NCBI GenBank assembly: GCA_039924845.1
Contig: JBDTAC010000004.1
Location: 1-59,825 of the forward strand
Origin: Bacteroidia bacterium
GTDB taxonomy: Bacteria; Bacteroidota; Bacteroidia; DATLTG01
Reading direction: 5' to 3'
Length of the DNA: 59,825 bases
The position numbers and the translations under genes were made by a program. Below are positions 6,382-58,830 of this stretch, in pieces. A model generated the notes under the pieces. The model saw nothing but the letters and a program-made list of their open reading frames with translations. It did no database searches and was not told the DNA's origin. Position 1 is the stretch's first letter; the number at the start of each line of letters is the position of its first letter.

Positions 6382-6400
6382 TTGAAAAAAATATTTTTCC
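6382..6400. repeat. Iterated A/T quasi-palindrome (intergenic)
   Basis: TTGAAAAAAATATTTTTCC is one copy of the iterated A-tract/T-tract motif discussed in the findings. It lies 11 bases upstream of a TACCTTTG -7 element. Confidence 0.7.
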
Positions 6401-6411
6401 GAATAAAATAA

Positions 6412-6419
6412 TACCTTTG
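6412..6419 (+). promoter_or_regulatory. Bacteroidota -7 promoter element (TACCTTTG)
   Basis: TACCTTTG matches TAnnTTTG, 31 bases before the ATG at 6451. A copy of the iterated A/T motif covers the place where the -33 element would be. Confidence 0.5.
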
Positions 6420-6450
6420 ACGCACTAAGAAAAAAGATAATTATAATCGC

Positions 6451-7443
6451 ATGAAAAAAATATTTTTTGTATTCGCTTTTCTGAGCATTGCAGTATTGTT
6501 AAATTCTTGTAGCAACGATGTAAAGCTACTTGCACCTTACAAGGAAACAACGGTAGTTTATGGTTTGCTCAATCAATCTTTAGACACCAATTATATCCGT
6601 ATTGAAAAAGGATATCTCGGAAACGGAAATGCTTTAACGATGGCACAAGTGGCTGATTCTATTAATTATCCAGCAAATCAATTGACAGTTACGCTTACCG
6701 CATCCAACACTAGTTTAGGAACGTCAACTACCTATACTTTGACACCAACAAATAGCATTCAGAAAAATACAGGAACTTTTGCAGCACCTGCACAAACATT
6801 GTATCAGATGCCTGTAAAATTAGATTCCTCTAATCAATATAATTTAACGATAATAAACAACAAAACAGGGCATACGGTTACATCACAAACTAATTTGGTA
6901 AATGGGTTTACGCTGTTGTCTCCTTCTTCAGGAACCACTACTATTGCGCTAACAAACAATGTATATCCGTACCGAACAAAGTGGCTAACAGCGGCTAACG
7001 GTAGAGTATATCAGCTTTCTATTCGCTTTTATTATTCAGAAAAAAATATTTCATCAGGCGTTACTACTCAAAAATATGTAGACTGGAGTTTTGCTTCACA
7101 AACTTCTCAGGATTTAATTGGTGGAGAGCCTATGGAAACTGATTTTTTTGCCAATTCCTTTTTTCAATACTTAGGAAATGTAATTCCGGTAAATTCGAAT
7201 GTGCAAAGAACAGCAGGAGCTTTTGTTTTTAATTTTACCGTAGGCTCGGATGATTTTAATACCTATTTGGAAGTAACGGCTCCTTCTTTAGGTATAAACC
7301 AAGCAAAACCAACTTTTTCGGATTTAACCAATGGCTTGGGACTTTTCACCTCGCGTTATACAACCAGCATATCTGTAGAACTCACTACGGCAACGTTGGA
7401 TACGCTTTCATTGGGACAATATACCAAGAATTTGGGTTTTTAA
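6451..7443 (+). CDS. Lipoprotein, possibly DUF4249-like
   Basis: A 330-residue predicted lipoprotein with a hydrophobic signal and lipobox AVLLNSC, so Cys20 would be the lipidated residue. The mature region begins with KETTVVYGLLNQSLDTNYIRIEKGY, which recalls DUF4249 lipoproteins of Bacteroidota (a beta-sandwich near the N-terminus), but I cannot confirm the family. No catalytic motif is visible. The first codons (MKKIFF) are themselves written by the iterated A/T motif. It is monocistronic between hemH and dnaK. Confidence 0.75.
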   Translation: MKKIFFVFAFLSIAVLLNSCSNDVKLLAPYKETTVVYGLLNQSLDTNYIRIEKGYLGNGNALTMAQVADSINYPANQLTVTLTASNTSLGTSTTYTLTPTNSIQKNTGTFAAPAQTLYQMPVKLDSSNQYNLTIINNKTGHTVTSQTNLVNGFTLLSPSSGTTTIALTNNVYPYRTKWLTAANGRVYQLSIRFYYSEKNISSGVTTQKYVDWSFASQTSQDLIGGEPMETDFFANSFFQYLGNVIPVNSNVQRTAGAFVFNFTVGSDDFNTYLEVTAPSLGINQAKPTFSDLTNGLGLFTSRYTTSISVELTTATLDTLSLGQYTKNLGF

Positions 7444-7488: not shown

Positions 7489-7513
7489 TTTCGAAAAAAT
7501 ATTTTTTGAAACG
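7489..7513. repeat. Iterated A/T quasi-palindrome (intergenic)
   Basis: A6-TA-T6 core with TTTCG on the left and GAAACG on the right, a nearly symmetric copy of the iterated motif. It lies just upstream of the dnaK leader repeats. Confidence 0.7.
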
Positions 7514-7618: not shown

Positions 7619-9544
7619 ATGGGAAAAATAATAGGAATAGACTTAGGTACAACCAACTCTTGCGTAGCCGTAATGGAAGGCAACGAGCCAGTTGTAATAG
7701 CAAATAGTGAAGGACGCAGAACAACACCTTCTATTGTGGCTTTTGTTGAAAATGGAGAACGTAAAGTTGGAGATCCCGCTAAACGCCAAGCCATCACCAA
7801 TCCGAAAAAGACAATTTATTCGATTAAACGCTTTATGGGCGAGACGTTCGATAAAGTAACAAACGAAATAAAACGTGTTCCTTACACGGTTGTAAAAGGC
7901 GATAACAATACACCTCGTGTGGAAATTGACGACCGTAAATACAGTCCGCAAGAAATTTCGGCGATCATTCTTCAAAAAATGAAAAAAACGGCTGAAGATT
8001 ATCTCGGGCACGAAGTAACTGAAGCGGTTATTACAGTTCCTGCATATTTTAATGATTCGCAACGTCAGGCAACCAAAGAAGCTGGAGAAATTGCGGGTTT
8101 AAAAGTAAAACGGATTATCAACGAACCTACTGCTGCTGCCCTTGCTTATGGCTTGGACAAGAAAAACAAAGACATGAAAATTGTCGTTTTTGATTGTGGT
8201 GGTGGAACACATGATGTATCTGTATTAGAATTGGGTGATGGCGTGTTTGAAGTAAAATCTACGGATGGTGATACACACCTTGGCGGAGATGATTTCGACC
8301 ATAAAATTATTGATTGGTTAGTTGCTGAATTCAAATCAGAAAATGGAAATTTGGATTTGACAAAAGATCCAATGGCTTTGCAACGTTTGAAAGAAGCTGC
8401 TGAAAAAGCAAAAATCGAATTGTCAAGTTCCGCATCTACCGAAATTAATTTGCCTTACATTATGCCTGTGGATGGCATTCCAAAACACTTAGTAAGAACA
8501 TTGACACGTGCAAAATTTGAGCAATTGGTGGATGATTTGATTAAACGTACCATCGCTCCATGCCAATCTGCGCTTAAAAGTGCAGGTTTAAGTGTGAATG
8601 ATATTGATGAAGTAATTTTAGTTGGAGGTTCTACACGTATTCCAGCAATTGTAGATGCAGTTCAAAAGTTTTTCGGAAAAGCTCCTTCCAAAGGTGTTAA
8701 TCCGGATGAAGTTGTTGCGATTGGAGCAGCTATTCAAGGCGGAGTATTAACTGGCGAAGTGAAAGATGTATTGTTGTTGGATGTAACGCCACTTTCTTTA
8801 GGAATTGAAACAATGGGCGGTGTTTTGACAAAATTAATTGAAGCCAACACAACCATTCCGACTAAAAAATCAGAAACGTTTTCGACGGCATCCGATAATC
8901 AACCATCAGTAGAAATACACATTTTACAGGGTGAACGTCCGATGGCGAAAGACAATCGTACCATTGGGAAATTTCACTTAGATGGCATTCCTCCTGCACC
9001 GCGTGGCATTCCACAAGTAGAAGTAACATTTGACATTGATGCGAACGGAATTTTAAATGTATCGGCAAAAGATAAAGCGACCGGAAAATCACAAAATATT
9101 AGAATTGAAGCCAGTTCTGGATTGTCTGATGCTGAAATAAAACGCATGAAACAGGAAGCGGAAACCAATGCCGAATCTGATAAAAAAATAAAAGAAGAAA
9201 CCGAAAAAATAAATGCGGCAGACGGATTAATTTTCCAAACAGAAAAGCAATTGAAAGAATATGGGGATAAATTGCCTGCGGATAAAAAACAACCTGTCGA
9301 AACAGCTTTGGCTGCCTTGAAAACAGCGCATCAAGCAAAAGATTTGACTGGCATTACAACGGCAATGGATCAATTAAATGCTTCTTGGCAAGCAGCTTCG
9401 GAAGAAATGTACAAAGCATCGCAAAATGCAGGAGCGGATCCAAATGCAGGTCAGCAACAAGCTTCGGCGGATAAAAATGGAAAAGCAGATGGAGAAGTAA
9501 CAGATGTGGATTTTGAAGAAGTAAAAGAAGAAGAGAAAAAATAA
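7619..9544 (+). CDS. dnaK: Chaperone protein DnaK (Hsp70)
   Basis: A 641-residue cytosolic Hsp70 chaperone. The N-terminal ATPase domain opens [16 protein letters not shown] and includes [36 protein letters not shown] and [10 protein letters not shown]. The substrate-binding domain ([16 protein letters not shown]) follows from about residue 380, then an alpha-helical lid. The C-terminus ends in a conserved acidic tail ([11 protein letters not shown]). One oddity is DCGGGTHD, where most DnaK proteins have DLGGGTFD. The usual partners dnaJ and grpE are not adjacent. The 175-base upstream gap carries repeated GCATAAT octamers instead of a standard promoter. Confidence 0.98.
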
Positions 9545-9569
9545 TTTTCACGGAATCAAAAATAAAGCA

Positions 9570-9871: not shown

Positions 9872-9895
9872 TTTGAAAAATTATTTTTTTGAAGC
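9872..9895. repeat. Iterated A/T quasi-palindrome (intergenic)
   Basis: A copy close to the consensus: TTTGAAAAA, then TTAT, then TTTTTTGAA. It lies between the cold shock terminator and the next gene's promoter. Confidence 0.75.
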
Positions 9896-10893: not shown

Positions 10894-11467
10894 AAATAGT
10901 TTTGAAAATTATTTTTACGTCTGTGAAAAAATTTTTTTCGCGGATGTATTTCAAATTCAAATTTAATTTTTCCGGCATCACTTCCTGAATGTATAGTTCT
11001 TCGGGATTCGAAACTTTTCCGAGTAATTCATTTTCGTTTGCAAATTTTATGGACGCGTAATCCGTAATTCCAGGTCGTACCGAAAGCACTTGCAATTGCT
11101 CGTTGTTGTAAAGATTGACGTATTTTCTGACTTCGGGACGCGGACCTACAAAACTCATATCTCCTTTGAAAACATTCGCCAATTGCGGTAATTCATCCAA
11201 TTTATATTTTCGTAAAAAATAACCCACGCGTGTAATTCGACTGTCTTTCGCGCCCACCGTAAGTAATCCTTTTTTATCGGCGTCGCTTACCATTGTTCGA
11301 AATTTAAAAAGAGAGAAATCGCTGCTGTTTTTTCCGACGCGTATTTGCTTGTAAATTATTTTTCCTTTTGAATCAACAACAATACACAACGCGATAATCA
11401 GAAAAAAAGGAATCAAAAAAAGTATTCCGATGAATGAGAAAAAGAGATCGAATGCGCGTTTTAACAT
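10877..11467 (-). CDS. Monotopic sugar-phosphate transferase (Bac_transf family)
   Basis: A 196-residue enzyme of the polyprenyl-phosphate phosphoglycosyl transferase family, which loads the first sugar phosphate onto undecaprenyl phosphate at the inner membrane. A re-entrant hydrophobic segment near the N-terminus ([20 protein letters not shown]) is followed by [21 protein letters not shown]. The core [23 protein letters not shown] follows at about residues 92-114. The length matches the small PglC-like single-domain class rather than the WcaJ or WbaP type. No polysaccharide cluster is adjacent, so its glycan is unknown. The 3' end overlaps the convergent SirB1-like gene by 17 bases. Confidence 0.93.
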
Positions 11468-11484: not shown

Positions 11485-13923
11485 TTAAAACTTGAATGTT
11501 AACCCTGCAAAAAAATTAATTCCTGCTTGCGGATAATAACTGTTGTCGTTTACTACCGCTCCGTTGCTGTAATAACTGTTGGTGTATCCGTTAGAAATAT
11601 ATTGTACATTAAAAATATTATTCAGCATTCCGTTTATTTCAATAATCGGAATAAAGGAAGTTTTAAAACTCCACGAAATGCGGAAATCATTCAGTAAGTA
11701 AGCATTCAGCATACGCGCATTTTCCGAAGTATTGTCTAAAAATTGGCTACCAACATATTTTGTTAGAAAGCTAAACGATACATTTTTGATGGGTTGATAA
11801 GACAATTCGCTGCCCGAAATAATGTTAGGTGAAAACGCAATATTTGTTTCTCCGTGTGATATTGCGAATTGTTGCCCATTGTCATAATCTTGCAAATATT
11901 CGGTAAAATTTTTGATTTTATTTTGGCTTAAAGTGATATTGCCATTGAAAAATAATTTTTCAGTAAGCTTAATTTGTATCGTTGCTTCTGCACCTTCGCG
12001 ATAGCTGGAAGGCACGTTGGTTCTATTAAAAGCACCTACGTCGTTCACTTGCCCTGTAAGCACTAATTGATTAAGATAATTCATATAATATAAATTAAGG
12101 CTCCAAAAAATATTTTTTTGATGCTGCTTATAACCTAATTCAAAATCATCTAAATGTTCTGGCTTTGGACGACTTTCTGGCGATGATTGTGTATAATCAT
12201 CGTGGTTGGGTTCGTGATTTCCAGCACTGTAAGAAGCGTATAAAAACGCTGTCGGTTTTAATGTGTAAGTAAAACCAGCCTTCGGATTAAAGAAATCCAA
12301 ATGCACCACTTGTTGTACATTTTGCAATAAATAATTGTATCCTAAAAAAGAATAGCCAATGTTCCGTTCTTGCATGTCGGCAAACAAATTCAGTTTTTCG
12401 GTGATTTGATCATTGGCTCGCGCAAAAATATTAAAATCGGTTTTGAAAGAAGTATTGTCATAATAATGTTGATCAATATTCGAATTTAATGCATAACGCG
12501 CCCAAATAATTTGTCCGTAATGTTCTCCTTGATATTGATTCCATGCGCCTTCCAAGGAAGCCGAAATTTTTTTTCCATTTGTATAGTTGAGAGAATAAGT
12601 AGTGCCGTAAAAATAATTACTGAGCCATTGTTGTCGAATAATATCCGATGAAGAAATAGTATCGTTTCCGAGAATAATCGGATTTAGTCCGTAATTACTA
12701 AACAAATCATTCGGCTGATATTCCTCGTAATAACCTTGTCCGCGCGTATAATGAAACGCGCAATTTCCACTCCAATGAGTGTTAAATGTTTTCGCAAAAA
12801 GTAATTGATAATAATCTTGTTGGTAATTATCAGTTTCGTTGTTATAATACTGAACATTTCCATTGCTGTCGAAATACATTCCTGCTGGGTTAAATGTTCT
12901 GTTTGTTTTCAATGAATCTTGCGGAACACCATACCACGCTTGATATGTTTTCTCAACGCCCGAAAAAATAATTGCTTTCATAAACCATGTTTTTGCATAA
13001 TATCCTCCCGATAAATAATAAGATTTTAAATTGGAAAATGCTCGGTCAATGTATCCATCCGAATTTATTTTTGACAGTCGCACATCAAAATCCCATTTTC
13101 CATCAATCAATCCAGTACCAAGGCTTACCGTGTTTTTTAATGTGTTGAAAGATCCAAAAGAATTATCCACTTCTCCGTAAGGTTTTAGATTTAATTTAGT
13201 TGTTTCAATATTTAGGCTTCCGCCGAAAGCACCAGCACCATTGGTAGAAGTACCCACGCCACGTTGTAGTTGAATGTTATCTGTAGAAGAAGCGATGTCT
13301 GGCAAATCCACCCAATATGTTTGTTGTGATTCTGCATCGTTTACCGGCACACCATTAATAGTAACATTAACGCGTGTTGCATCGCTTCCGCGAATACGAA
13401 TGCCAGTATATCCAATACCTGTTCCTCCATCCGAAGTTACCACCATCGAAGGCGTATAATTCAGCAAATAAGGCATATCCTGCCCAATATTTTCTTTTTC
13501 TAAAACACTTTTATCTATATTGGTATAAGCCATAGCAGATTTATTGTTTGCATTTACAGCACTTATCACTACTTCGTCCGACAAAATGGCTTTTTTTACG
13601 AGCTGATAATGGATTGATACGTCAGAAGAAAGTGTCAGCGTATCCTGCAAAGTAGTATAACCTAAATAGGAAATCTCTACAATGTACTTTCCTTTTTTTA
13701 AATTTTCTATTTTGAAATTTCCGTTGAGGTCGGTTTCTGAAACAAGAAATGTGTTTTTTAAATTAATGGCAGCATTGGCAAGTGTTTCTCCACTTGTTTG
13801 GTCTGTAACGCTTCCGCTGAATGTTATTTGTGCCTTGCTGTAAAAGGCTACAGAGCAAAATGTTAGTGCTAAAATAATTTTTATTGCACGTTTCTTTTTG
13901 AAAAACTTTTTTTCACACTTCAT
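11485..13923 (-). CDS. TonB-dependent receptor, probably for thiamine
   Basis: An 812-residue outer-membrane receptor. A signal peptide ends near YSKAQ at about residue 31. A carboxypeptidase-regulatory-like domain follows (GSVTDQTSGETLANAAINL to about residue 115), then the plug domain (VLEKENIGQDMPYLLNYTPS, with IRIRGSDATRVNVTINGVPVND). A 22-strand-type barrel ends in the aromatic FFAGLTFKF. A clear TPP riboswitch lies in its leader, so expression is expected to fall when thiamine pyrophosphate is plentiful. Together with known TPP-controlled TonB receptors in Bacteroidota, this points to thiamine or a precursor as cargo. The substrate is inferred from regulation, not from binding residues. 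Confidence 0.9.
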   Translation of the reverse strand: MKCEKKFFKKKRAIKIILALTFCSVAFYSKAQITFSGSVTDQTSGETLANAAINLKNTFLVSETDLNGNFKIENLKKGKYIVEISYLGYTTLQDTLTLSSDVSIHYQLVKKAILSDEVVISAVNANNKSAMAYTNIDKSVLEKENIGQDMPYLLNYTPSMVVTSDGGTGIGYTGIRIRGSDATRVNVTINGVPVNDAESQQTYWVDLPDIASSTDNIQLQRGVGTSTNGAGAFGGSLNIETTKLNLKPYGEVDNSFGSFNTLKNTVSLGTGLIDGKWDFDVRLSKINSDGYIDRAFSNLKSYYLSGGYYAKTWFMKAIIFSGVEKTYQAWYGVPQDSLKTNRTFNPAGMYFDSNGNVQYYNNETDNYQQDYYQLLFAKTFNTHWSGNCAFHYTRGQGYYEEYQPNDLFSNYGLNPIILGNDTISSSDIIRQQWLSNYFYGTTYSLNYTNGKKISASLEGAWNQYQGEHYGQIIWARYALNSNIDQHYYDNTSFKTDFNIFARANDQITEKLNLFADMQERNIGYSFLGYNYLLQNVQQVVHLDFFNPKAGFTYTLKPTAFLYASYSAGNHEPNHDDYTQSSPESRPKPEHLDDFELGYKQHQKNIFWSLNLYYMNYLNQLVLTGQVNDVGAFNRTNVPSSYREGAEATIQIKLTEKLFFNGNITLSQNKIKNFTEYLQDYDNGQQFAISHGETNIAFSPNIISGSELSYQPIKNVSFSFLTKYVGSQFLDNTSENARMLNAYLLNDFRISWSFKTSFIPIIEINGMLNNIFNVQYISNGYTNSYYSNGAVVNDNSYYPQAGINFFAGLTFKF

Positions 13924-14143: not shown

Positions 14144-14170
14144 GTTTGAAAAATTATTTTTTTGAACGCT
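14144..14170. repeat. Iterated A/T quasi-palindrome (intergenic)
   Basis: GTTTGAAAAA, TTAT, TTTTTTGAACGC. It is identical in its core to the copies at 9872 and 26373, although the last of those lies inside a gene. Confidence 0.75.
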
Positions 14171-14778: not shown

Positions 14779-15351
14779 ATGAGTTTAAACATCATCAAAA
14801 ATAATTTTTTAGAAGCTCAACAAACGCTCGAAAAATTTATTTCGAACGAAGTGAATCTGAAAAATATCGAGCAAGCTGGAAATATTTTATCCGCTGCCAT
14901 TAAAAGCGGAAACAAGATTATTTCGTGTGGCAACGGCGGCTCTATGTGCGATGCCATGCACTTTGCAGAAGAATTAACGGGTCGCTTTCGCGAGAACAGA
15001 AAAGCAATTGCGGCACTTTCTATTTCCGATCCGTCTCATATTTCTTGCGTTGGAAATGATTACGGATACGAATTTATTTTTTCGCGTTACATCGAAGCCT
15101 TGGGTGCTAAAAATGATGTTTTACTTGCCATCAGCACCAGTGGAAATTCGCAAAATGTGCTTCACGCGATACATGCCGCCAAAGAAAAAGGAATGAAAGT
15201 TATCGGTTTAACCGGAAAAAATGGCGGAAAAATGGCTTCGCTTTGTGATATAGAAATCCGCGCACCACATTCTGAATTCGCTGATAGAGCACAAGAAATC
15301 CACATTAAAGTTATTCATTCGCTGATTCATTACATAGAAAAACAGGTTTGA
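14779..15351 (+). CDS. gmhA: Sedoheptulose-7-phosphate isomerase
   Basis: A 190-residue SIS-domain enzyme that converts sedoheptulose 7-phosphate to D-glycero-D-manno-heptose 7-phosphate, the first step of ADP-heptose synthesis for LPS inner core. Long blocks match the E. coli enzyme: [49 protein letters not shown] and [14 protein letters not shown]. The ATG at 14779 gives the family length (E. coli 192) and follows a -7 element, so the 21-residue upstream extension is not used. A GmhB-like phosphatase for a later step is encoded at 36679. Its TGA stop falls in the left arm of an A/T hairpin. Confidence 0.96.
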
Positions 15352-15371
15352 AAAAATAATTTTTCAAACTC
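15345..15371 (+). terminator. A/T hairpin overlapping the gmhA stop
   Basis: AGTTTGAAAAATTATTTTTT reads on the opposite strand. On the plus strand TTTGAAAAA pairs with TTTTTCAAA around a TAAT loop, with GG and CT beyond. It is a symmetric copy of the iterated motif with a weak all-A/T stem. It probably helps 3'-end formation, but lacks the GC stem of a strong terminator. Confidence 0.45.
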
Positions 15372-15440
15372 TTATTTCAAAATATTTTGTTTTTAAAAAT
15401 TCGTCTTCTTTCAGATAAGTAGAGTAGGGCGTATATTTTT

Positions 15441-18398: not shown

Positions 18399-18418
18399 GT
18401 TGAAAAAAATATTTTTGT
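18399..18418. repeat. Iterated A/T quasi-palindrome (intergenic)
   Basis: GTTGAAAAAAATATTTTTGT, about 70 bases before the terminator that carries a second copy. Confidence 0.6.
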
Positions 18419-18465: not shown

Positions 18466-18505
18466 AAAAAAGGATTGAAAAATTATTTTTTTCAATCCTT
18501 TTTTT
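18466..18505. terminator. Bidirectional terminator with A/T motif at its centre
   Basis: AAAAAAGGATTGAAAAA pairs with TTTTTCAATCCTTTTTTT around a short TTAT loop. It lies between convergent genes (comM and the nuclease/TPR fusion) and works equally well from both sides. The iterated motif forms the top half of the stem. Confidence 0.9.
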
Positions 18506-18523: not shown

Positions 18524-19990
18524 TTACTTACAATATTTTTCTAATTCTTCCTTAGCATCTATATAACCTAATTCAAATGCTTTTTTCCAATCAATAAAAG
18601 CACCTTCTTTATCTTTCAATTCATATTTCGCCAAACCTCTTTTATAATAAGCTTCTTCATCTTCTGTGTCTAATTTAATAGCTTTAGTAAAATCATCAAT
18701 TGCACCTCTAAAGTCTTCTAATTCATATTTAGCACAACCTCTATTATGGTAAGCTTCTTCATCTTCTGTGTCTAATTTAATAGCTTTAGTATAATCTTCA
18801 ATTGCCCCTTTATAATCTTCTATATCAATTTTTACATTACCTCTATCTGTATAAAGATAATGCTCTTCTTCCATGCCTTGCTCATTTAGTATTTTAATTG
18901 CCTTTGTATAATCTTCTATCGCACCTTTATAATCTTCTAATTCATGTTTAGCTAGGCCTCTATTTTCATAAGCCTCGAAATCTTCAGGTAGTAGTTTAAT
19001 CGCAACGGTAAAGTCTTGAATAGACCCTTTATAATCTTCTAACTCATATTTAGCAAGCCCTCTTTGATTGTAACATAACCAGTCATCGCCAAAATCTTGA
19101 ATAAATCTTGTGTAATCTTGAATAGCACCTTTGTAATCTTGAATTTCAAATTTAATTTCTGCATTTTGAAGTAAGGGATAAGAATTACAATCATTTAATT
19201 CAAATGCCTTTGTATAATCCTTTATTGCGCCACGATAATCTTCTAATTGATTTTTTGCATCAGCTCTTTTAGAATAGGATTTGGCATCATTAGGCTTTAA
19301 TTCAATTGCTTTGGTATAATCCTCTATTGCACCTGCATAATCTTTCAATTTGATTTTTGCATGCCCACTTACATAATAATTGCGATGAGCTTCTTTGCTA
19401 TTGTTTTTTGATTCTTTATCAATAGGACTTTTTCTTTCTGTTATTTTTTCCTCAGATTTAACAATTTCTTTTGTAAAAAGAATTGTTTTAGTTTTTTTAG
19501 GAGTATTAAATTGCTCAAGTTCTTCGCTTTCTCTTATCATTGAAAGAGTGTCATTTTCATAGTAAGTATATTTCCATAGTTCGGCTCTCAACTTTGGAGC
19601 TAAATATTTATCATCCATATTATATTCTTGGGCAAAGCAAATAATCCTTGTATTAGCAAAATCAATATTTACTTTAATATTTAATTCATCTCTAACTAAA
19701 AGTTCAAATTCAGCTTTGTTTTTTTCAATCCAATCTATATATCTATGCGCCTGTACAAGTTGTCCTTTTTCCATTGTCTTTTTATATTCTACAACAACAG
19801 GTCTATTGTTATAGTCAAGTCCAAGGGTTTCTATTCTACCATGTTTATCTGTTCTATGTTCTTTTTTTATAAACCGCACTTCAAAAAGTTCTTCAAGATT
19901 ATTATCAATAAAGTCGTGCAGTTCTAATTCACTTTTGAATTCCTTTTGGGTTACTTTGCTCGCCTTACCATTTTTTATTTCAAATATCAT
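18524..19990 (-). CDS. PD-(D/E)XK nuclease-like domain fused to TPR repeats
   Basis: A 488-residue soluble protein. Residues 1-150 look like a PD-(D/E)XK nuclease fold of the NucS/DUF91-related kind: Asp59 in LGLDYNNRP, Glu68 and Lys70 in VVVEYKK, then GQLVQAHRYIDWI with the helix glutamines. After a charged linker (about 160-200), about eight TPR units follow, each built around DYxGAIxDYTKAIxL, and the C-terminus resembles a Sel1-type end. There is no signal peptide. It has its own promoter (20051-20081). The combination is unusual. DNA or RNA cleavage is possible but not shown; substrate and partners are unknown. Confidence 0.75.
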   Translation of the reverse strand: MIFEIKNGKASKVTQKEFKSELELHDFIDNNLEELFEVRFIKKEHRTDKHGRIETLGLDYNNRPVVVEYKKTMEKGQLVQAHRYIDWIEKNKAEFELLVRDELNIKVNIDFANTRIICFAQEYNMDDKYLAPKLRAELWKYTYYENDTLSMIRESEELEQFNTPKKTKTILFTKEIVKSEEKITERKSPIDKESKNNSKEAHRNYYVSGHAKIKLKDYAGAIEDYTKAIELKPNDAKSYSKRADAKNQLEDYRGAIKDYTKAFELNDCNSYPLLQNAEIKFEIQDYKGAIQDYTRFIQDFGDDWLCYNQRGLAKYELEDYKGSIQDFTVAIKLLPEDFEAYENRGLAKHELEDYKGAIEDYTKAIKILNEQGMEEEHYLYTDRGNVKIDIEDYKGAIEDYTKAIKLDTEDEEAYHNRGCAKYELEDFRGAIDDFTKAIKLDTEDEEAYYKRGLAKYELKDKEGAFIDWKKAFELGYIDAKEELEKYCK

Positions 19991-20108: not shown

Positions 20109-20130
20109 AGGAAAAATTATTTTTTTGAAG
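20109..20130. repeat. Iterated A/T quasi-palindrome at end of operon
   Basis: AGGAAAAATTATTTTTTTGA overlaps the 3' end of the cyclase-like gene. It may help end the seven-gene transcript. Confidence 0.6.
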
Positions 20131-24045: not shown

Positions 24046-24056
24046 CTTTCAAAAAA

Positions 24057-39891: not shown

Positions 39892-39913
39892 AGAAAAATA
39901 TTTTTTCAAAGCG
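39892..39913. repeat. Iterated A/T quasi-palindrome (intergenic)
   Basis: CAGAAAAATATTTTTTCAAA, located between the GTCATTCTGAA palindrome and the inverted TTTTTGGCTT repeat, mirroring the order found near 32.7 kb. Confidence 0.65.
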
Positions 39914-45406: not shown

Positions 45407-45468
45407 CTTTGAAAAATTAATTTTTCAAACGAGTTTTCTATACGTTCAAAAAAATATTTTTTCAAACC
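45407..45468. repeat. Two iterated A/T quasi-palindromes upstream of pyrR
   Basis: Copies at 45407-45432 (CTTTGAAAAATTAATTTTTC plus AAACG) and 45443-45468 (CGTTCAAAAAAATATTTTTT plus CAAACC) lie 10 bases apart. The second is 11 bases from the pyrR -7 element. Confidence 0.75.
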
Positions 45469-47000: not shown

Positions 47001-47022
47001 CGTAAAAATAATTTTTTCAGGA
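47001..47022. repeat. Iterated A/T quasi-palindrome in STAS leader
   Basis: CGTAAAAATAATTTTTTCAG, directly followed by the AGGAGG sequence. It is transcribed as part of the 5' leader. Confidence 0.6.
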
Positions 47023-47460: not shown

Positions 47461-48633
47461 TCAGCTAAAAAATTTCTTCCCTTCTTTTGCCATTTGTTTT
47501 AGCAAAATACTTGGGCGATAACGATCTTCTCCGTAATCGTTTTGCAAATCGGAAAGCGTTTTCAAACAATTTTCCAAGCCAATTTCATCCGCCCATTTTA
47601 ATAATCCTTTCGGATAATTGACACCTTTTGTCATCGCTAAATCAATATCTTCCTTGCTTGCTAATTGCAAATACAAGGAATCGACAGCTTCATTTATCAA
47701 CATAGAAATAACGCGTTGAAAAATTATTTTTCCGAGCGCTAAATCCTTTAAAGGATTTGGTAACGTAGCGTTCGGCGAATAATCATAATATCCTCTTCCT
47801 GATTTTTTACCGAAAAATTTTGCTTCGAATAAACGCTTTTGAGTAAACGAAGGTTTGAAGCGCGGTTCGTAAAAAAATTGTTCCCAAACAGTTTCGGTAA
47901 CTTTATAATTAATGTCGTTTCCGATAAAATCCATCAATTCAAAAGGACCCATTTTAAACCCGCCAATTTCTTTCATTGCCCAATCAATCGTAGCAAAATC
48001 AGCAATTTCTTCTTCGTAAATCCGAATGGATTCTCCGTAAAAATTTCGCGCTACGCGATTAACAATAAATCCAGGCGTATCTTTCGCCAGCACCGTTATT
48101 TTTTTCCAAGTGTCAATTAATTTTCGAGTATTTTCTGTAACAACGAGATTTGTAGTAAGCGCCGGAATAATTTCGACCAAAGGCATTAATGGCGCAGGAT
48201 TAAAAAAATGAATTCCAATAACTCTTTCTGGCTTATTGCAAGCAGCCGCAATGGAAGTAATAGAAAGCGAAGATGTGTTAGAAGCCAAAACACAGGTGTC
48301 CGAAACTTTTTTTTCTAATTCTGAAAATACACTTTGTTTAATCTGCAAATTTTCAACAATCGCCTCAATAACTAAATCACAGCCTTTGAAAGCTTCCATA
48401 TCATTAACATATAGCGTTCTCGAAGTGATGGCTTCTGCTTCGGATTTCGTAATTTTCGTCTTTTCTACTAATCTGAAAAGAATTGTTTCTAAATTATTTT
48501 TCGCCTTTTCAAGCGCATTTGCATTGCTGTCATAAACAATAACATGATGTCCCGCACTTGCTGCCACTTGCGCAATTCCACTTCCCATAGCACCCGAACC
48601 GATGATGCCTATTTTTGATGTTTTCGAAAACAT
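47461..48633 (-). CDS. 3-hydroxyacyl-CoA dehydrogenase
   Basis: A 390-residue NAD-dependent enzyme of acyl-CoA oxidation or butyrate-type pathways. The Rossmann motif is GSGAMGSGIAQVAASAGH at the N-terminus, followed by VIEAIVENLQIKQSVF and CVLASNTSSLSITSIA, with GIHFFNPAPLMPLVEI carrying the catalytic His. Two C-terminal 3HCDH domains follow, with TPGFIVNRVARNFYGE and KLFEAKFFGKKSGRGYYDYS-type blocks. The second domain contains a KGVNYPKGLLKWAD motif typical of PaaH-like enzymes. etfBA are divergent upstream, so a shared fatty-acid oxidation role is plausible. An iterated motif lies within it (47713-47735). Confidence 0.93.
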   Translation of the reverse strand: MFSKTSKIGIIGSGAMGSGIAQVAASAGHHVIVYDSNANALEKAKNNLETILFRLVEKTKITKSEAEAITSRTLYVNDMEAFKGCDLVIEAIVENLQIKQSVFSELEKKVSDTCVLASNTSSLSITSIAAACNKPERVIGIHFFNPAPLMPLVEIIPALTTNLVVTENTRKLIDTWKKITVLAKDTPGFIVNRVARNFYGESIRIYEEEIADFATIDWAMKEIGGFKMGPFELMDFIGNDINYKVTETVWEQFFYEPRFKPSFTQKRLFEAKFFGKKSGRGYYDYSPNATLPNPLKDLALGKIIFQRVISMLINEAVDSLYLQLASKEDIDLAMTKGVNYPKGLLKWADEIGLENCLKTLSDLQNDYGEDRYRPSILLKQMAKEGKKFFS

Positions 48634-48734: not shown

Positions 48735-49472
48735 ATGAAAATTTTAGTTTGCATCAGCAACGTTCCTGACACCACTACAAAAATTACTTTTTCTGCCGAT
48801 AATAAGTCGTTTAACAGCGCAGGCGTTCAGTATATCATTAATCCTTATGATGAAATTGCGCTGACACGTGCCTTGGAATTAAAGGAAAGTTTGGGTGGAA
48901 CTGTTACCGTTATTAATGTAGGAATAGCAACTACCGAAGCCAACATCCGTAAAGCACTTGCCATTGGCGCAGATGATGCCATTCGTATAAATGCGGAACC
49001 TTTAGACGCTTTTTTTGTTGCTTCTCAAATCGCAGAAATCGCGAAAAAAAATCAATACGATATTATTTTAACTGGTCGTGAATCTATTGATTACAACAGT
49101 GGATTGGTTGCTGGAATGATTGGAGAATTATTGGAAATTCCTTCTGTTTCTGTTGCCGTAAAATTAGATGTAAACGGAACAGAAGCTTTATTAGAAAGAG
49201 AAATTGACGGAGGAAAAGAAGTAATAAGTACATCGCTTCCATTTGTGGCAAGTGCACAAAAAGGAATGGCAGAACCTCGCATTCCGAATATGCGCGGCAT
49301 TATGACAGCACGAACAAAACCATTACAAGTAGTTGAACCGACAGGAAATACAGCAACAACTTCTTTTGTAAATTATTCTGTTCCTCCTGCAAAATCAGCT
49401 TGTAAAATGATTTCCGCAGATCATCCAGAAGAATTAATCAACTTATTACACAACGAAGCAAAAGTCATTTAA
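48735..49472 (+). CDS. etfB: Electron transfer flavoprotein beta subunit
   Basis: A 245-residue subunit of the ETF heterodimer, which carries electrons from acyl-CoA dehydrogenases to the quinone pool. It begins MKILVCISNVPDTTTKI. An AMP-site region includes AIGADDAIRI and DIILTGRESIDYNSGLVAGM, and the C-terminal part has LPFVASAQKGMAEPRIPNMRGIMTA. etfA follows after 31 bases, where an iterated A/T motif fills the gap. A TAnnTTCG-like element lies upstream. Confidence 0.96.
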   Translation: MKILVCISNVPDTTTKITFSADNKSFNSAGVQYIINPYDEIALTRALELKESLGGTVTVINVGIATTEANIRKALAIGADDAIRINAEPLDAFFVASQIAEIAKKNQYDIILTGRESIDYNSGLVAGMIGELLEIPSVSVAVKLDVNGTEALLEREIDGGKEVISTSLPFVASAQKGMAEPRIPNMRGIMTARTKPLQVVEPTGNTATTSFVNYSVPPAKSACKMISADHPEELINLLHNEAKVI

Positions 49473-49490
49473 AAAAATATTTTTTCAATC
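49468..49490. repeat. Iterated A/T quasi-palindrome between etfB and etfA
   Basis: CATTTAAAAAAATATTTTTT followed by CAA. It overlaps the etfB stop and fills most of the gap to etfA. Confidence 0.65.
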
Positions 49491-51956: not shown

Positions 51957-51983
51957 CGTTTCAAAAAAATAATTTTTCAAATG
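51957..51983. repeat. Iterated A/T quasi-palindrome between thyA and folA
   Basis: GTTTCAAAAAAATAATTTTT then CAAATG. The last ATG of the copy is the folA start codon. Confidence 0.7.
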
Positions 51984-52466
51984 CCTATTTCCATCATCGT
52001 TGCAGCAGCCGAAAATAACGTGATTGGAAAAAACAATCAATTGATTTGGCATTTATCTGCGGACTTACAACATTTCAAAAAAATTACGATGGGACATACC
52101 ATTGTGATGGGACGAAAAACATTTGAATCCATTGGAAAGCCTTTGCCAGGAAGAGTTTCCATTATCATCACTCGAAATAAAAATTACACTGCGGAAGGTT
52201 GCATCGTTGTAAATTCATTGGAAGAAGCCTTACAAAAAAACACTTCCGAAAAAGATTTTTTCATTATTGGCGGAGCTGAAATTTTCAATCAATCCATGCA
52301 CCTTGCACAAAAAATTTATTTTACTAAAATTTTTCATGCTTTTGAAGGCGATTGCTTTTTTCCGAAAATAGATGAAAAAATTTGGGAACTCCGACAAGAA
52401 GAGCGCTTTGAACCAACTGAAAAAAATAATTTTTCGTACGCTTTTTGCGAATATGAAAAGATATAA
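51981..52466 (+). CDS. folA: Dihydrofolate reductase
   Basis: A 161-residue NADPH-dependent enzyme that reduces dihydrofolate to THF. It begins SIIVAAAENNVIGKNNQLIWHLSADLQHFK with the acidic/tryptophan substrate site. GHTIVMGRKTFESIGKPLPGR and FIIGGAEIFNQSM form the cofactor sites. It pairs with thyA. An iterated motif copy lies in the coding region (KNNFSYAF, 52416-52438). Confidence 0.97.
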   Translation: MPISIIVAAAENNVIGKNNQLIWHLSADLQHFKKITMGHTIVMGRKTFESIGKPLPGRVSIIITRNKNYTAEGCIVVNSLEEALQKNTSEKDFFIIGGAEIFNQSMHLAQKIYFTKIFHAFEGDCFFPKIDEKIWELRQEERFEPTEKNNFSYAFCEYEKI

Positions 52467-53362: not shown

Positions 53363-53396
53363 AAGCCTCTCAAAAAAATAATTTTCTGAGAGGCTT
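53363..53396. terminator. Bidirectional terminator between lipoprotein and clpC
   Basis: AAGCCTCTCA pairs with TGAGAGGCTT around a loop that is an iterated A/T motif. A-runs on the left and the AAAA on the right make it usable from both sides. Confidence 0.88.
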
Positions 53397-53414: not shown

Positions 53415-55955
53415 TCAATCTTCTTTTTTACTTTTCTTTTTCGGTTTGGAAATTTTAATTTTGATTTCTGATTTTTCTTTATCCAAATCTACTTCAATCG
53501 TATCTCCCTCTGATAACGTGGATTTGATGATTTCTTCCGCCAAAGGATCTTCCACATATTTTTGAATGGCACGTTTTAACGGACGCGCACCAAATTGCGT
53601 ATCAAAACCTTTATCGGCAATAAAATCTTTCGCTTCTTTACTGATTTTGATATTGTATCCTAAACCATTTATTCTGCCGTACAAACTCGCCAATTCAATG
53701 TCGATGATTTTGTGAATATCACCACTGCTCAATGAATTGAATACAATTACGTCATCAATACGATTTAAAAATTCGGGCGCAAATGCTTTTTTCAAAGCAC
53801 TTTCAATCACACCTTTCGAATGTTCATCCACCGTGCTTGTTTTTGCAGAAGTTGCGAAACCAACACCTTGTCCGAAATCCTTTAATTGGCGTGAACCAAT
53901 GTTGGAAGTCATGATAATAATGGTGTTTTTGAAATCTACTTTTCTACCTAAACTATCTGTCAACTGACCGTCGTCTAAGGCTTGCAGCAATAAATTAAAA
54001 ACATCCGGATGTGCTTTTTCGATTTCGTCTAACAATATTACCGAGTACGGTTTTCTTCTTACTTTTTCGGTTAATTGTCCGCCTTCTTCGTAACCAACAT
54101 ATCCCGGAGGTGCACCCACCAAGCGCGATACAGAAAATTTTTCCATGTATTCGCTCATGTCAATTCGGATCAGTGCATCGTCACTATCAAATAAATAATG
54201 AGATAAAATTTTTGCCAATTGTGTTTTTCCAACTCCTGTAGGACCAAGGAAAATAAAGGATCCAATTGGTTTATTCGGATCTTTCAATCCAGCACGATTG
54301 CGTTGAATTGCTTTCACCACTTTTTTAATTGCTTCGTCTTGGCCGATTACTTTTCCTTTTAATTCATCGCCCATTTTCACCAATCGAGAACCTTCGTTTT
54401 GCGCAATTCTTTGCACCGGAACGCCTGTCATCATTGCTACAACTTCTGCAACATTGTCTTCTGTAACGGTTTCTTTATGTCCTTTGGTGTCTTCTTCCCA
54501 ATGCTTTTTAGCGATTTCTAATTGCTCGAGCAATTGTCGTTCGGTATCTCTGAGTTTCGCAGCCTCTTCGTACTTCTGACTTCTCACCACTTTATTTTTT
54601 TCTTCTTTAATCCCTTCCAATTTTTTCTCGATATCGATGATATCTTTCGGAACGTTGATGTGTGTGATGTGAACACGAGAACCCGCTTCGTCCAAGGCAT
54701 CAATCGCTTTATCCGGCAAATGGCGATCACTGATATATCTTGCCGTCAGCAACACACATGCTTTAATCGCTTCGTCTGTATAAGTAACATTGTGATGATC
54801 TTCGTATTTCGATTTTATATTGTGAAGAATTTGCAACGTTTCATCAATCGTAGCAGGCTCTATCAATACTTTTTGAAAACGTCTTTCCAAAGCGCCATCT
54901 TTCTCAATGTATTGACGATATTCATCTAAAGTTGTAGCACCGATACATTGTATTTCGCCTCTTGCCAAAGCTGGTTTAAACATATTGGAGGCATCCAAAG
55001 AACCGGATGCGCCGCCCGCACCAATAATGGTATGGATTTCATCAATAAATAAAATAACGTCTGGAGATTTTTCCAATTCGTTCATCACCGCTTTCATGCG
55101 TTCTTCAAATTGACCGCGGTATTTTGTACCTGCTACAAGCGAAGCTAAATCAAGCGTTACCACGCGTTTATTAAACAATACGCGAGATACTTTTCGTTGA
55201 ACGATACGAAGTGCTAATCCTTCTGCAATTGCAGATTTACCAACACCTGGCTCGCCAATCAAAATAGGATTGTTCTTTTTTCTTCTACTTAATATTTGAG
55301 ATACGCGTTCAATTTCTTTATCGCGACCAACAATCGGATCTAATTTTCCGTCTTCTGCAGATTTAGTAAGGTCTCTACCGAAATTATCCAATACAGGCGT
55401 TTTGGATTTTGAATCGCTCGGTTTTTTAGTGCTGCTTCCAAATGTGGCAGAATCTTCATCTCCGTCATCATCCGTAGGACTTCCTGGAAATTCTGCTTTT
55501 GGATCAAGCGGACTAGCATTGTTATTGTATACGTCTAATTCTTGTTTGATCAATTCGTAATCAATATGAAAGCGGTGCAGGGCTTTTGTTGCTACATTGT
55601 CTTCGTCCTTTAAGATAGACAACAACAAATGTTCCGTTCCGATAATCGGACTTTTAAAAAGCTTTGCTTCTAAATAGGTTATTTTCAAAGCTCTTTCCGC
55701 TTGCTTTACCAAAGGAATATTGGTGAGCGCATTTATTTTTTTTGTGGGCACGGCAATGGATTGTTCAATGGTTTTGCGCAATTCGTTTAAATCCACTTTT
55801 AACCCTTTTAAAAGTTTAATGGCAACGCCTTCGCCTTCGCGGATAATACCAAGTAACAAATGTTCCGTACCAATGTAATCATTTCCCAAACGCAGCGCTT
55901 CCTCACGGCTATAGCTGATTACGTCTTTTACTCGAGGTGAAAATTTCGCTTCCAT
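53415..55955 (-). CDS. clpC: ClpC-type AAA+ protease subunit
   Basis: An 846-residue Hsp100 ATPase that unfolds proteins and feeds them to ClpP. A Clp_N double repeat (residues 1-150) includes [20 protein letters not shown] and [20 protein letters not shown]1 has Walker [10 protein letters not shown], and a UVR-like middle domain is [33 protein letters not shown]2 has GPTGVGKTQ and [14 protein letters not shown]. The length and middle domain fit ClpC rather than ClpB. clpP is not adjacent. A -7 element and the iterated motif lie upstream. Confidence 0.96.
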
Positions 55956-56261
55956 AAAAATATTTTTTTGATAGGTTTACTCTTTAGTCTCTGAAAAACC
56001 GCTGAAATTTAGGGCTTTTTTTAATTTTTTCAAAGGTACGTTGCTATTTATATTTCGATATTGTTAATATCTTTCTTTTTTCAACTAAAAAATGTTAATA
56101 ATTAAACATTTTTTGAGTAGCATTTTTTCGGCAAATTACAATACCTTCGAACTCCATTTACAGCATAGCAATTTCTATGCAATTTTTTGTTTGTATGACA
56201 AAAATACAGTATAATGGTTTAATACAAATCATCAATAAATAGTAATAAAAATAAGCGATTT
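55955..56261. promoter_or_regulatory. Divergent gap between clpC and gyrA
   Basis: This 306-base gap holds the clpC promoter (TACCTTTG on the minus strand, 56038-56031), an iterated A/T motif copy next to the clpC start (55955-55976), and A/T-rich sequence before gyrA. A TATAAT (56212-56217) lies 44-49 bases upstream of gyrA and resembles a classic sigma70 -10, but without a convincing -35. No gene or hairpin was seen in it. Confidence 0.5.
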
Positions 56262-58793
56262 ATGGCATCAGGCGAAAAGATTATTTTAATTAACATCGAA
56301 GAAGAAATGAAATCCGCTTACATTGATTATTCAATGTCGGTAATTGTATCAAGGGCTTTGCCAGATGTGCGCGACGGATTAAAACCAGTTCACCGCAGGG
56401 TATTATACGGAATGCTTGATTTGGGCGTTTTTTCCAATCGTCCGTATAAAAAATCAGCAAGGATTGTCGGTGAAGTAATGGGTAAATACCATCCACACGG
56501 TGATGCGTCAATTTACGATACGATGGTGCGTATGGCGCAAGATTGGTCTTTGCGTTATCCATTGGTGGACGGGCAAGGAAATTTTGGTTCGATTGATGGA
56601 GATAGTCCTGCTGCGATGCGTTATACAGAGGCACGGTTGAAAAAAATTGGCGAAGAAATGATTAGCGATATCGAAAAAGATACCGTTGATTTCAGACCCA
56701 ATTTCGATGATTCTTTAACAGAGCCAACTGTGCTTCCGACACGTATCCCAAATTTATTAATCAATGGAGCGTCCGGTATTGCTGTGGGTATGGCAACCAA
56801 TATGCCACCACATAATTTAACGGAAATAATTGATGCCACAATGGCATACATTGACAATAGAGACATTGATATTGCTGGATTGATGCAATATGTGAAAGCA
56901 CCTGATTTTCCTACAGGAGCAATTATTTATGGATATGAAGGTGTAAAAGAAGCGTTTGAAACAGGGAGAGGTAGAATTGTGATGCGCGCGCAAACATCTG
57001 TGGAAACAGAAGAAAACGGGCGAGAAAGAATCATTGTTACGGAAATCCCATACATGGTTAATAAAGCCGAAATGATTAAGAGGACGGCGGATTTAATCAA
57101 TGAAAAAAAGATAGAAGGAATCTCTGATATTCGCGATGAGTCCGACAGAGACGGGATGCGCATTGTATATGAATTGAAACGCGATTCTATCACGAATGTG
57201 GTGTTGAATAATTTATTCAAATACACTTCGTTGCAATCGTCTTTCAGCGTAAATAATATTGCCTTGGTTGGTGGCCGACCGATGATGTTGAATATTAAAG
57301 ACATGATCGGACATTTCGTAAATCACCGTCACGATGTAATTGTTCGCAGAACAAAATTTGAATTGAATCAAGCCGAAAAAAGAGCGCATATCTTGGAAGG
57401 CTATTTAATTGCGCTGGATCATTTAGATGCCGTTATCAAACTAATTCGTGAATCTGTAACTCCGGATGAAGCGAAGGATGGTTTGATGAAAAATTTCGGA
57501 TTGAGTGAAATTCAATCAAAAGCAATACTTGAAATGAGATTGCGTGCGCTGACTGGTTTAGAGAGAGATAAGATAAAGAGCGAGTACGACGAGTTGATGA
57601 AATTAATTACGTATTTGAGAAGTATTTTGAACGATGAAGCGTTGAGAATGAAAATCATCAAAGAGGAACTTGCCGAAATAAAAACGAAATACGGAGATGC
57701 TCGCAGAAGTGAAATTGTGTACGCTGCTGGAGATTTCAAAATAGAAGATATGATTGCCGATGAAGATGTGGTGATTACTATTTCTCATTTAGGTTATGTA
57801 AAACGTACGGCTCTTGCCGAATATAAAACACAAAATAGAGGCGGAAGAGGTTCTAAAGGCACAGCTACAAGAGACGAAGATTTCTTAGAACATTTATTTA
57901 TTGCTTCTACACACAATTACATTTTGTTTTTTACAGAACAAGGTAAATGTTATTGGATGCGCGCTTTCGAAGTTCCGGAAGGTTCGAAAACATCGAAAGG
58001 TAGAGCCATTCAAAATCTCGTAAACATTGCTCCAGATGATAAAGTGAGAGCGTTTATCAATGTGAAGAATTTCACGGACATCGAGTATTTGAAAAACAAC
58101 TACATTATTATGTGTACCAAAAAAGGTACGATTAAGAAAACAACTTTGGAAGCTTATTCTCGCCCGCGCCAAAATGGTATCAACGCTATTACCGTGAAAG
58201 ATGGAGATACATTGTTGGAAGCTAAATTGACCAACGGTAAAAATGAAATTATGCTTGGATTAAGATGCGGAAAAGTGGTGCGTTTTAACGAAACAAAAGT
58301 ACGTCCGATGGGCAGAAATGCTTCGGGAGTACGCGGAATCACACTTAGCAGCAAAAAAGATGAAGTAATCGGAATGGTGTGTATTGATGATCCACTAACA
58401 AACGTAATGGTGGTGGCTGAAAAAGGATATGGAAAACGTTCCAGCATTGATGAATATAGAGTTACCAATAGAGGCGGAAAAGGTGTAAAAACAATCAATA
58501 TCACCGAAAAAACCGGACAATTAATTGCTATAAAAAGTGTAACGGATAAAAATGATTTGATGATTATCAACAAATCCGGTCTCACCATTCGTTTAAAAGT
58601 GTCTGATTTACGCGTTATTGGCAGAGCAACGCAAGGCGTACGATTGATTAATTTAAAAGACGATGATGAAATTGCAGCCGTAACAAAAATAGAAGTAGAG
58701 GACGATGAAATAATTGTTTTGGATGAAAATGAGATTCAAAATGATACACCTGCGGACGATGCCGAACAAACGGAAACTCCTACGGAAGAATAA
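56262..58793 (+). CDS. gyrA: DNA gyrase subunit A
   Basis: An 843-residue topoisomerase subunit that breaks and rejoins DNA. The catalytic tyrosine is Tyr121 in [10 protein letters not shown]. The quinolone region reads [19 protein letters not shown] (residues 75-93), with Ala82 at the position equivalent to E. coli Ser83 and Asp86 at that of Asp87. The C-terminal DNA-wrapping domain starts near residue 500 and includes the GyrA box as [10 protein letters not shown]. The protein ends in a 40-residue acidic tail. gyrB is not in this window. Confidence 0.98.
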
Positions 58794-58806
58794 ATTATAA
58801 AAAGCA

Positions 58807-58830
58807 CATCAAAAAAAATAATTTTTTAAA
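58807..58830. repeat. Iterated A/T quasi-palindrome after gyrA
   Basis: ACATCAAAAAAAATAATTTT then TTAAAA. It lies in the 69-base gap before the TPR gene. Confidence 0.55.

Follow-up and report, generated by a model that had tools for sequence, protein, structure and literature searches.

A lineage-private A/T dyad iterated across a Bacteroidia genome as the possible site of an architectural DNA-bending protein

Results

Copies of the motif in the window

The window, a stretch of 59,825 nucleotides from one contig of a Bacteroidia genome, carries genes including dnaK, clpC (53415-55955) and gyrA (56262-58793). Dispersed over genes and gaps alike are copies of a short A/T quasi-palindrome, which a sequence-only reading of this DNA had described as highly iterated. 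We located its cores by a pattern scan and graded them by run length. A strict core consists of A5+, then TA, TAA or TTA, then T5+; a relaxed core has runs of 4+. The window holds 39 strict cores and 56 with runs of 4+, or 41 and 58, respectively, when TTAA centres are included. They are listed here by position, with no strand assigned.

5856-5869, strict, in CDS 5514-6341, AAAAAATATTTTTT; absent from the sequence-only reading
6385-6398, strict, intergenic
6454-6468, strict, at a start codon, ATG-AAAAAAATATTTTTT, MKKIFF
7494-7507, strict, intergenic
9536-9548, relaxed, 3' end of dnaK
9876-9890, strict, intergenic
10905-10916, relaxed, CDS
11948-11960, strict, CDS
12105-12119, strict, CDS
13871-13882, relaxed, CDS
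14149-14163, strict, intergenic
14797-14810, strict, CDS
15351-15364, strict, intergenic
15379-15388, relaxed, intergenic
18403-18416, strict, intergenic
18478-18492, strict, intergenic, within a longer inverted repeat (arms AAAAAAGGATTG.../...CAATCCTTTTTTT); may double as a terminator
20112-20126, strict, at a CDS end
20145-20158, relaxed, CDS
21360-21374, strict (TTAA centre), CDS
22070-22080, relaxed, CDS
22518-22532, strict, CDS
24051-24065, strict, border of 24057-24578
24553-24567, strict, CDS
24989-24999, relaxed, CDS
25281-25295, strict, CDS
25908-25920, relaxed, CDS
26379-26393, strict, CDS
26443-26456, strict, CDS
26665-26680, strict, intergenic
28482-28496, strict, intergenic
31039-31053, strict, intergenic
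32776-32790, strict, intergenic
33033-33046, strict, first of a pair about 47 bp apart
33080-33093, relaxed, second of that pair
34263-34275, relaxed, CDS
34388-34401, strict, CDS end, within a long inverted repeat (ACGGGTTTG.../...CAAACCCGTTTTTT); may double as a terminator
35352-35365, strict, CDS
36282-36294, relaxed, CDS
37147-37160, relaxed, CDS
37413-37427, strict, CDS
39894-39906, strict, intergenic
40174-40186, relaxed, CDS
40690-40700, relaxed, CDS
40941-40953, strict, CDS
41227-41237, relaxed, CDS
44539-44553, strict, CDS
44724-44738, strict, intergenic by the gene call, CDS in the longer ORF 44623-45384
45412-45425, strict (TTAA centre), first of a pair 36.5 bp apart
45448-45462, strict, second of that pair
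45675-45688, relaxed, CDS
47004-47017, strict, intergenic
47719-47731, strict, CDS
49471-49485, strict, intergenic
51963-51977, strict, intergenic
52420-52434, strict, CDS
53372-53385, relaxed, intergenic, in a GC-armed inverted repeat (GCCTCTC.../...GAGAGGC); may double as a terminator
55956-55969, strict, intergenic
58811-58827, strict, intergenic

All 38 positions listed in the sequence-only reading have a core within a few bases. Its statement that the first 6.3 kb is free of copies is wrong by one, the core at 5856-5869. It was right that copies fall both inside and between genes, with a coding share somewhat larger than it suggested (about 20 of the 41 strict copies lie in predicted CDS), and that the long conserved genes are sparse in them: clpC and gyrA have none, and dnaK has a single relaxed core at its end.

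Abundance relative to controls

The iteration proves stronger than was claimed. Against the 39 strict cores observed, shuffles of the window by a third-order Markov model yield 1.3 ± 1.3 (60 shuffles, maximum 5) and a fifth-order model 2.1 ± 1.6, so that the count lies far above what base composition provides. Fully flanked copies number 14, with 0.07 expected; plain A5+T5+ shows, if anything, a deficit (2 observed, 6 expected). The motif recurs about two thousand times in the genome as a whole, both between and within genes: 1535 strict copies (708 coding and 827 intergenic) and 2133 relaxed copies in 2.0 Mb. The pattern AAAAAWTAWTTTTTYR occurs 1272/1256 times in the whole genome versus 4/0 for its mirror control.

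Within 1.02 Mb, 307 cores lie in coding sequence, compared with 108 ± 9 after synonymous shuffling and 6 ± 3 after shuffling of codon order, and the excess thus also survives codon-preserving controls. It is true that the genome is 65% A+T and that lysine-rich N-termini (MKKIIF) supply some copies. Nonetheless, enrichment is 30-fold over Markov expectation, 50-fold over codon-order shuffling and 75- to 300-fold over the mirror control, and no comparable excess occurs in other sampled genomes of the class or phylum. The Markov, mirror-pattern, synonymous and codon-order controls refute chance, base composition and codon usage, and the probability that the motif is a by-product of these or of proteins rich in K, N, I and F is negligible.

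Architecture of the motif

Aligned on their centres over 2.01 Mb of the genome, the copies form an 18-bp dyad, TT-YR-AAAAA-W-TA-W-TTTTT-YR-AA, with a strong flank consensus and one common logo for coding and intergenic copies. The dyad point is a TpA step, a sharpening of the earlier description, and rigid A5 and T5 tracts lie on either side of it. This central TpA is kinkable, and flexible CA, TG or CG steps stand 8 bp to either side: 61% of half-sites have one at +8/+9, compared with 6-15% at +7/+8, +9/+10 and +10/+11. The flanks are therefore conserved beyond the A/T runs, as had been proposed, but as a YR step at a fixed distance of 8 bp and not as paired G/C.

Beyond the core, A/T tracts recur in phase, approximately once per helical turn, as far as about ±55 bp from the dyad. 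The W/S oscillation peaks at 18, 32, 43 and 53 bp, with valleys at 13, 24, 39 and 48 bp, and is alike in coding DNA, in intergenic DNA and at sites without a neighbour. At such isolated sites the phasing intervals are 14, 11 and 10 bp, with a best fit of 11.6 bp. An exact period of 12.6 bp was dropped, as that estimate is partly an effect of neighbouring sites. A stronger A-tract phasing genome-wide was likewise considered, and after GC matching and normalisation it is ordinary background (period 11.0, amplitude 0.055 versus 0.041 in relatives).

The consensus is relaxed, with 53 perfect, 86 one-mismatch and 141 two-mismatch copies of a 21-mer, and 115, 166 and 352 copies, respectively, of a 17-mer. 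Information content is ~20 bits per site over some 1500-2100 sites. The two ends of the motif vary independently, and base-pairing between the flanks is near expectation overall, which indicates that most copies are not hairpins and argues for readout as DNA rather than RNA.

Spacing, gene context and terminators

Sites or clusters of sites occur about once per 1.6 kb. Distances between nearest neighbours cluster at 33-38 and 47-50 bp, and pairs 30-55 bp apart, almost all of them intergenic, number 137 against about 62 expected. The preferred doublet spacings are 36 and 48 bp, values that differ by 12. Deserts of 3-6 kb are under-represented, with 105 gaps longer than 3 kb between sites where chance predicts 153 (z -5.3). 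An AT-rich PHB island (C14), which was probably acquired to judge from its gene content, has only 2 copies in 18.7 kb.

Bidirectional transcription terminators, or some other RNA hairpin, could account for part of this distribution. Density is 3.0 per kb in divergent, 3.5 in tandem and 4.4 in convergent gaps, and within long tandem and convergent gaps the copies tend to lie nearer gene 3' ends. Stems of at least 8 pairs beyond the core are found at 13% of the sites in convergent gaps and at 8% of those in both tandem and divergent gaps, compared with 3-5% by re-pairing, and the window copies beginning at 18478, 34388 and 53372 are embedded in long inverted repeats that have GC arms and T tracts. 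However, most sites lack a GC-bearing stem that could pair over the loop. In the commonest core, A7TAAT5, both ends are C and so unable to pair, and the two ends of the motif do not co-vary. Divergent gaps are almost as dense in copies as the others, and the 708 of 1535 copies in coding sequence share the intergenic logo, with stems of 8+ pairs at 3% of coding sites. The lack of co-variation and the coding copies refute a hairpin as the general explanation, which we rate as very unlikely, although a minority of copies probably serve as terminators as well, which may be the case for about one in ten of the intergenic sites.

Copies inside genes

The motif dictates amino acids in genes. Protein identity to homologues is 0.37 at sites versus 0.59 elsewhere; the core at 25281-25295, for example, encodes QKNIFS where a homologue has SAGKTH. 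Alignment gaps accompany 14% of sites and 7% of random positions (35 sites). In these alignments copies in genes arise by substitution, mostly ungapped, at variable amino-acid positions. Of the 307 coding cores, 73 lie in the first tenth of their genes. Coding copies are slightly more frequent at 2-5 kb from intergenic ones (0.39 versus 0.28 per kb), an effect too weak to lean on as a sign that they compensate for distant intergenic copies.

High copy number and private occurrence would also suit dispersed copies of a small mobile element such as a MITE or REP. Such copies would be insertions with alignable bodies, yet core length and flanks vary continuously here, the copies share no alignable sequence beyond the logo, and the mostly ungapped substitution relative to homologues leads us to reject mobile repeats, whose involvement is highly improbable.

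Taxonomic range

No comparable excess is present in about 650 other genomes sampled from the phylum Bacteroidota, none of which belongs to the family or order of the source genome; the highest counts among them are 15 for the AAAAAWTAWTTTTTYR pattern and 157 for a looser one. Among 2.9 million viral contigs, none has the full 22-bp consensus, and a looser 20-mer gives 25 single matches with no contig containing two. Loci of 12-22 kb from relatives, a small sample, revealed no analogous over-represented 11-mer (“dialect”). Within this sampling the motif is confined to one lineage. The suggestion that no described element matches it also holds for the literature searched, mostly open-access papers.

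Discussion

A putative architectural protein

We tentatively favour, at slightly below an even chance, the interpretation that the motif is the lineage-private site of a putative architectural protein. The sequence features suggest an abundant, sequence-selective protein that bends or wraps DNA, within a nucleoid-architecture system private to this lineage. Such a protein would be symmetric and would read the shape of narrow minor grooves, kink the three flexible steps and hold 50-110 bp of phased DNA. Complexes spaced at 36/48 bp would cooperate with their neighbours, sites far apart from one another might constrain loops or supercoils, and selection for the ensemble of sites would override tolerant amino-acid positions.

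Several observations are consistent with this proposal. The dyad, the bend-prone steps and the phased A/T tracts are those expected of a nucleoid-protein site, and the doublet pile-up at two spacings is expected for cooperative binding. Sites are not concentrated in any one gene-orientation class to the degree expected of a terminator or promoter element, which also supports a protein site. Mismatched copies that outnumber perfect ones are typical of sites for regulatory DNA-binding proteins (PMC1626085), a pattern that the relaxed consensus fits. An H-NS-like xenogeneic silencer is probably ruled out, since the AT-rich and probably acquired PHB island is almost bare of sites.

Other observations weigh against a protein site. 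No candidate protein stands out: the three HU-family genes of the genome are of an ordinary kind in bacteria, and a crude motif scan of the genome for AT-hook proteins gave nothing convincing. Known nucleoid proteins accept looser sites, and 1500-2100 amino-acid-changing sites of ~20 bits are a heavy cost for a nucleoid protein. The kilobase-scale distribution, moreover, fits uptake sequences equally well. A bolder version of the proposal, drawn likewise from sequence patterns, is that the whole chromosome has been rewritten for a sequence-specific packaging code, in which a protein or filament on a helically phased A/T dyad roughly every kilobase, cooperating at 36/48 bp, would dictate amino acids in hundreds of genes within one bacterial order. 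This we consider doubtful, but a serious candidate.

To our knowledge, well-described highly iterated genome-wide signals are few, namely uptake sequences (two families), HIP1 of cyanobacteria and Chi, and none was found for Bacteroidota in the literature searched, mostly open-access papers. A motif about as abundant as USS or DUS, restricted to one lineage and able to override protein sequence, raises the question of whether a packaging protein, biased repair or sexual self-recognition is the force that writes thousands of sites. Should it be a binding site, it would be a candidate sequence-specific packaging code in bacteria; should it be an uptake signal, it would imply that DNA is taken up sequence-selectively by a route that needs no type IV pili. 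The rules of dyad, phasing and doublets are concrete enough to fish for the putative binding protein.

Comparison with known systems

Like the USS of Haemophilus and the DUS of Neisseria, the motif could be a self-recognition sequence that a competence machinery prefers during DNA uptake and that molecular drive multiplies. The USS of Pasteurellaceae shares its density of about one copy per kilobase, preferentially outside but often inside genes, its origin by substitution at variable protein positions, its rare deserts and close pairs, and A/T tracts flanking the core, there 12 bp apart (PMC1626085). The DUS of Neisseriaceae has a similar density, sits in permissive core regions and is absent from recent acquisitions (PMC2397512), matching the low identity to homologues at our sites and their scarcity in the probably acquired PHB island. 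ComEC is present in the genome but is also matched in 10 of 14 control genomes, and its presence therefore proves little. On the other hand, USS has a strict, non-palindromic, GC-containing 9-bp core, DUS has a 10-bp non-palindromic core without flanking tracts, and perfect copies of both outnumber one-off copies, whereas our motif is palindromic and relaxed (53/86/141). Both also depend on a type IV pilus or a similar machine, and no T2SSE/PilB/PilT-family ATPase (PF00437) was found in this 99.1% complete genome, which argues against type IV pilus uptake of known kind. Nor is it obvious what the 36/48-bp doublets would do in uptake. We judge this alternative unlikely, though it is the main rival.

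A HIP1-like element, a palindrome spread by biased repair or replication rather than by selection for binding, would likewise be high-copy throughout the genome, lineage-restricted, present in genes and gaps and scarce in probably acquired DNA. HIP1, however, is a fixed GC-rich 8-mer, and HIPs are GC-rich palindromes linked to the methyltransferases that recognise them (PMC4390886). The core of our motif is A/T-only with degenerate YR ends, and repair bias predicts neither flanks phased to about 55 bp nor the doublet spacings. Such an origin seems quite improbable, though less so than the hairpin, mobile-element and composition accounts.

The favoured reading, a site for a DNA-bending protein, finds its parallels in the sites of Fis, IHF/HU and Lrp/FFRP. 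These too are dyads whose A/T centre has a narrow minor groove, with flexible YR steps nearer the ends and A tracts in the flanks. The motif differs from their consensus sites in the 16-bp distance between its YR steps, centred on a TpA, and it far exceeds them in copy number and information content.

Abundance and restriction to one genome

The window is one contig (C4) of a 2.66-Mb genome (101 contigs, 99.1% complete) from an uncultured member of the Bacteroidota. Its gyrA product is most similar (80-82% protein identity) to those of MAGs of uncultured Bacteroidota, several of which bear freshwater names, and two of the window's proteins have T9SS sorting tails. No Rfam family was found in the window. 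Tandem repeats are also present:

1-456: 250-bp unit, ~1.8 tandem copies (94% match), at the extreme start of the contig, with a gene downstream of it whose product has a T9SS sorting tail; possibly an assembly end or a tandem duplication.
18611-18846: 102-bp unit, ~2.2 copies, within gene 18524-19990 (minus strand); probably protein-domain repeats.

The strict core (A5+, then TA, TAA or TTA, then T5+) occurs 39 times in the window, compared with 1.3 copies expected from a third-order and 2.1 from a fifth-order Markov model; plain A5+T5+ runs occur twice against six expected (Markov). A core is present at every position listed by eye in the sequence-only reading, which described the first 6.3 kb as core-free and overlooked one copy there, at 5856-5869.

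The entire genome was counted by pattern and 2.01 Mb of it was read, the remaining ~0.65 Mb contributing pattern counts only; contigs C3, C29, C33, C71 and C87 (~2.7-2.9 kb each) read as N throughout. The pattern AAAAAWWWWTTTTT has 2388 genome matches (overlapping counted) versus 32 for its mirrored version. Its maximum across 394 further genomes of the class is 157, and their counts typically stay within a few-fold of those for the mirrored version; the nearest gyrA relatives have 1-141. For the sharper pattern AAAAAWTAWTTTTTYR, counts on the two strands are 1272 and 1256 versus 4 and 0 for the control, and at most 15 in 296 other genomes across the phylum. These samples overlap and together comprise ~650 other genomes, all from outside the host's own family and order; within this set the excess is confined to the one genome. 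In phages the motif was not seen: none of 2.9 million viral contigs has the full 22-bp consensus, and a looser 20-mer gave 25 single hits with no contig carrying two.

The 2.01 Mb contain 1535 strict copies and 2133 relaxed ones (runs of 4+), or 0.76 and 1.05 per kb. A simple purpose-made gene caller, which makes class counts approximate, puts 827 of the strict copies in intergenic DNA (3.2 per kb) and 708 in coding sequence (0.40 per kb).

Anatomy of the motif

Alignment of 1794 anchored sites yields the TpA-centred consensus TT-Y-R-A5-W-T|A-W-T5-Y-R-AA, with 20.8 bits of information within 9 positions of the centre and 24.2 bits within 22, a large share of which is due to the anchor pattern AAAAWTAWTTTT. 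Independently of the anchor, a non-TA YR step occupies +8/+9 in 61% of half-sites (15% at +7/+8, 10% at +9/+10, 6% at +10/+11), followed by A at +10/+11, G/C enrichment at 12-14 and an A/T tract at 16-21. The core words A7TAAT5, A6TAAT5, A6TAT6, A5TTAAT5 and others are one dyad, with CA, TG or CG filling a fixed YR slot; centres of the TATA, TAAA or pure A-T type seldom occur. The outer A/T tracts form a damped wave peaking at 18, 32, 43 and 53 bp. Coding and intergenic DNA both show this wave, and it persists at isolated sites (no neighbour within 130 bp). A background phasing effect was rejected as the source of the motif.

Doublets, clusters and deserts

Nearest-neighbour distances pile up at 33-38 bp and 47-50 bp, with 59 pairs at 30-42 bp and 78 at 42-55 bp versus ~31 expected in each bin. 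Such pairs are almost all intergenic. In 36-bp pairs the cores share one intervening A/T tract (36 = 18 + 18), and in 48-bp pairs two tracts ~12 bp apart intervene. Triplets and bigger clusters were also found, as was a recurrent doublet:

C24:4836-5063: five copies in 230 bp, directly upstream of a gene reading as ribosomal protein S12 (rpsL).
C68:38813-39056: seven copies in 250 bp, spaced 33, 55, 33, 33, 56 and 33, with partly repeated flanks; suggests local duplication of a motif array.
C41:27186, C52:2399 and C94:12647: three near-identical intergenic doublets (AAATGTCG/CTTAATTTATAGTTCGAAAAATATTTTTT...ACCAATTTGAAGTA); a longer dispersed repeat containing the doublet.

Gaps of more than 3 kb between copies are rarer than in a gap-matched null (105 versus 153, z -5.3), and deserts of more than 6 kb are as numerous as expected. 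By gene names read directly off the sequences, deserts hold a PHB/polyester operon (contig C14), stress-protein-like clusters (C88, C48, C23) and also genes that are long or conserved, nuo among them. The whole of C14 (18.7 kb, ordinary GC) has only two relaxed copies; its polyhydroxybutyrate-type cluster encodes two PhaC-like synthases, thiolases, reductases, phasin-like proteins and a duplicated 197-aa protein. Judged by gene content, the PHB and stress clusters look like acquired DNA.

The motif within coding sequences

A codon-preserving shuffle had been proposed in the sequence-only reading as a check on the motif. In 870 CDS (0.88 Mb) we count 307 cores, far above both the 6 ± 3 left when codon order is shuffled inside each gene and the 108 ± 9 left by synonymous shuffling. 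The motif therefore overrides protein sequence, shaping codons and residues alike. Cores start in each of the three reading frames and encode peptides such as KNNF, KNIF, KIIF and KKYF. Relative to homologues of at least 45% identity, site residues are less conserved than those elsewhere (0.37 versus 0.59) and alignment gaps occur at 5 of 35 coding sites, which indicates that most coding sites were born by substitution at tolerant positions rather than by insertion; at one site, KNNFS stands in place of the QVELG found in a 69%-identical homologue.

Possible functions

A hairpin was rejected as a general explanation: the flanks pair about as often as expected, the commonest core is bordered by C on either side, the two YR ends do not co-vary, and the motif is nearly as dense in divergent as in convergent gaps. 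Nonetheless, a minority could double as terminators: stems of eight or more pairs beyond the core occur at 8-13% of intergenic sites versus 3-5% by chance re-pairing. The genome distribution matches published descriptions of DNA uptake sequences of the USS/DUS type (PMC1626085; PMC2397512), but two hallmarks of such sequences failed when tested here, namely a consensus stricter than that of a binding site and, in the genome, a type IV pilus/T2SS ATPase. Since to our knowledge the route of DNA across the outer membrane in known competent Bacteroidota is not settled, we retain uptake as an unlikely explanation rather than discard it.

We favor instead the reading that a symmetric protein binds the motif cooperatively and bends or wraps the DNA. 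The dyad would reflect the symmetry of that protein; rigid tracts, phased outer tracts and three steps able to kink, set 8 bp from one another, would suit bending or wrapping; and the preferred doublet spacings might reflect cooperative binding. No candidate binding protein for the motif was found in the genome, where the three HU-family genes are ordinary for bacteria and a crude scan gave no obvious AT-hook protein.

Among known systems, the USS core is adjoined by A/T tracts spaced 12 bp (PMC1626085), an arrangement that this motif matches. The nearest palindromic precedent is HIP1, which differs in being GC-rich and methyltransferase-linked (PMC4390886).
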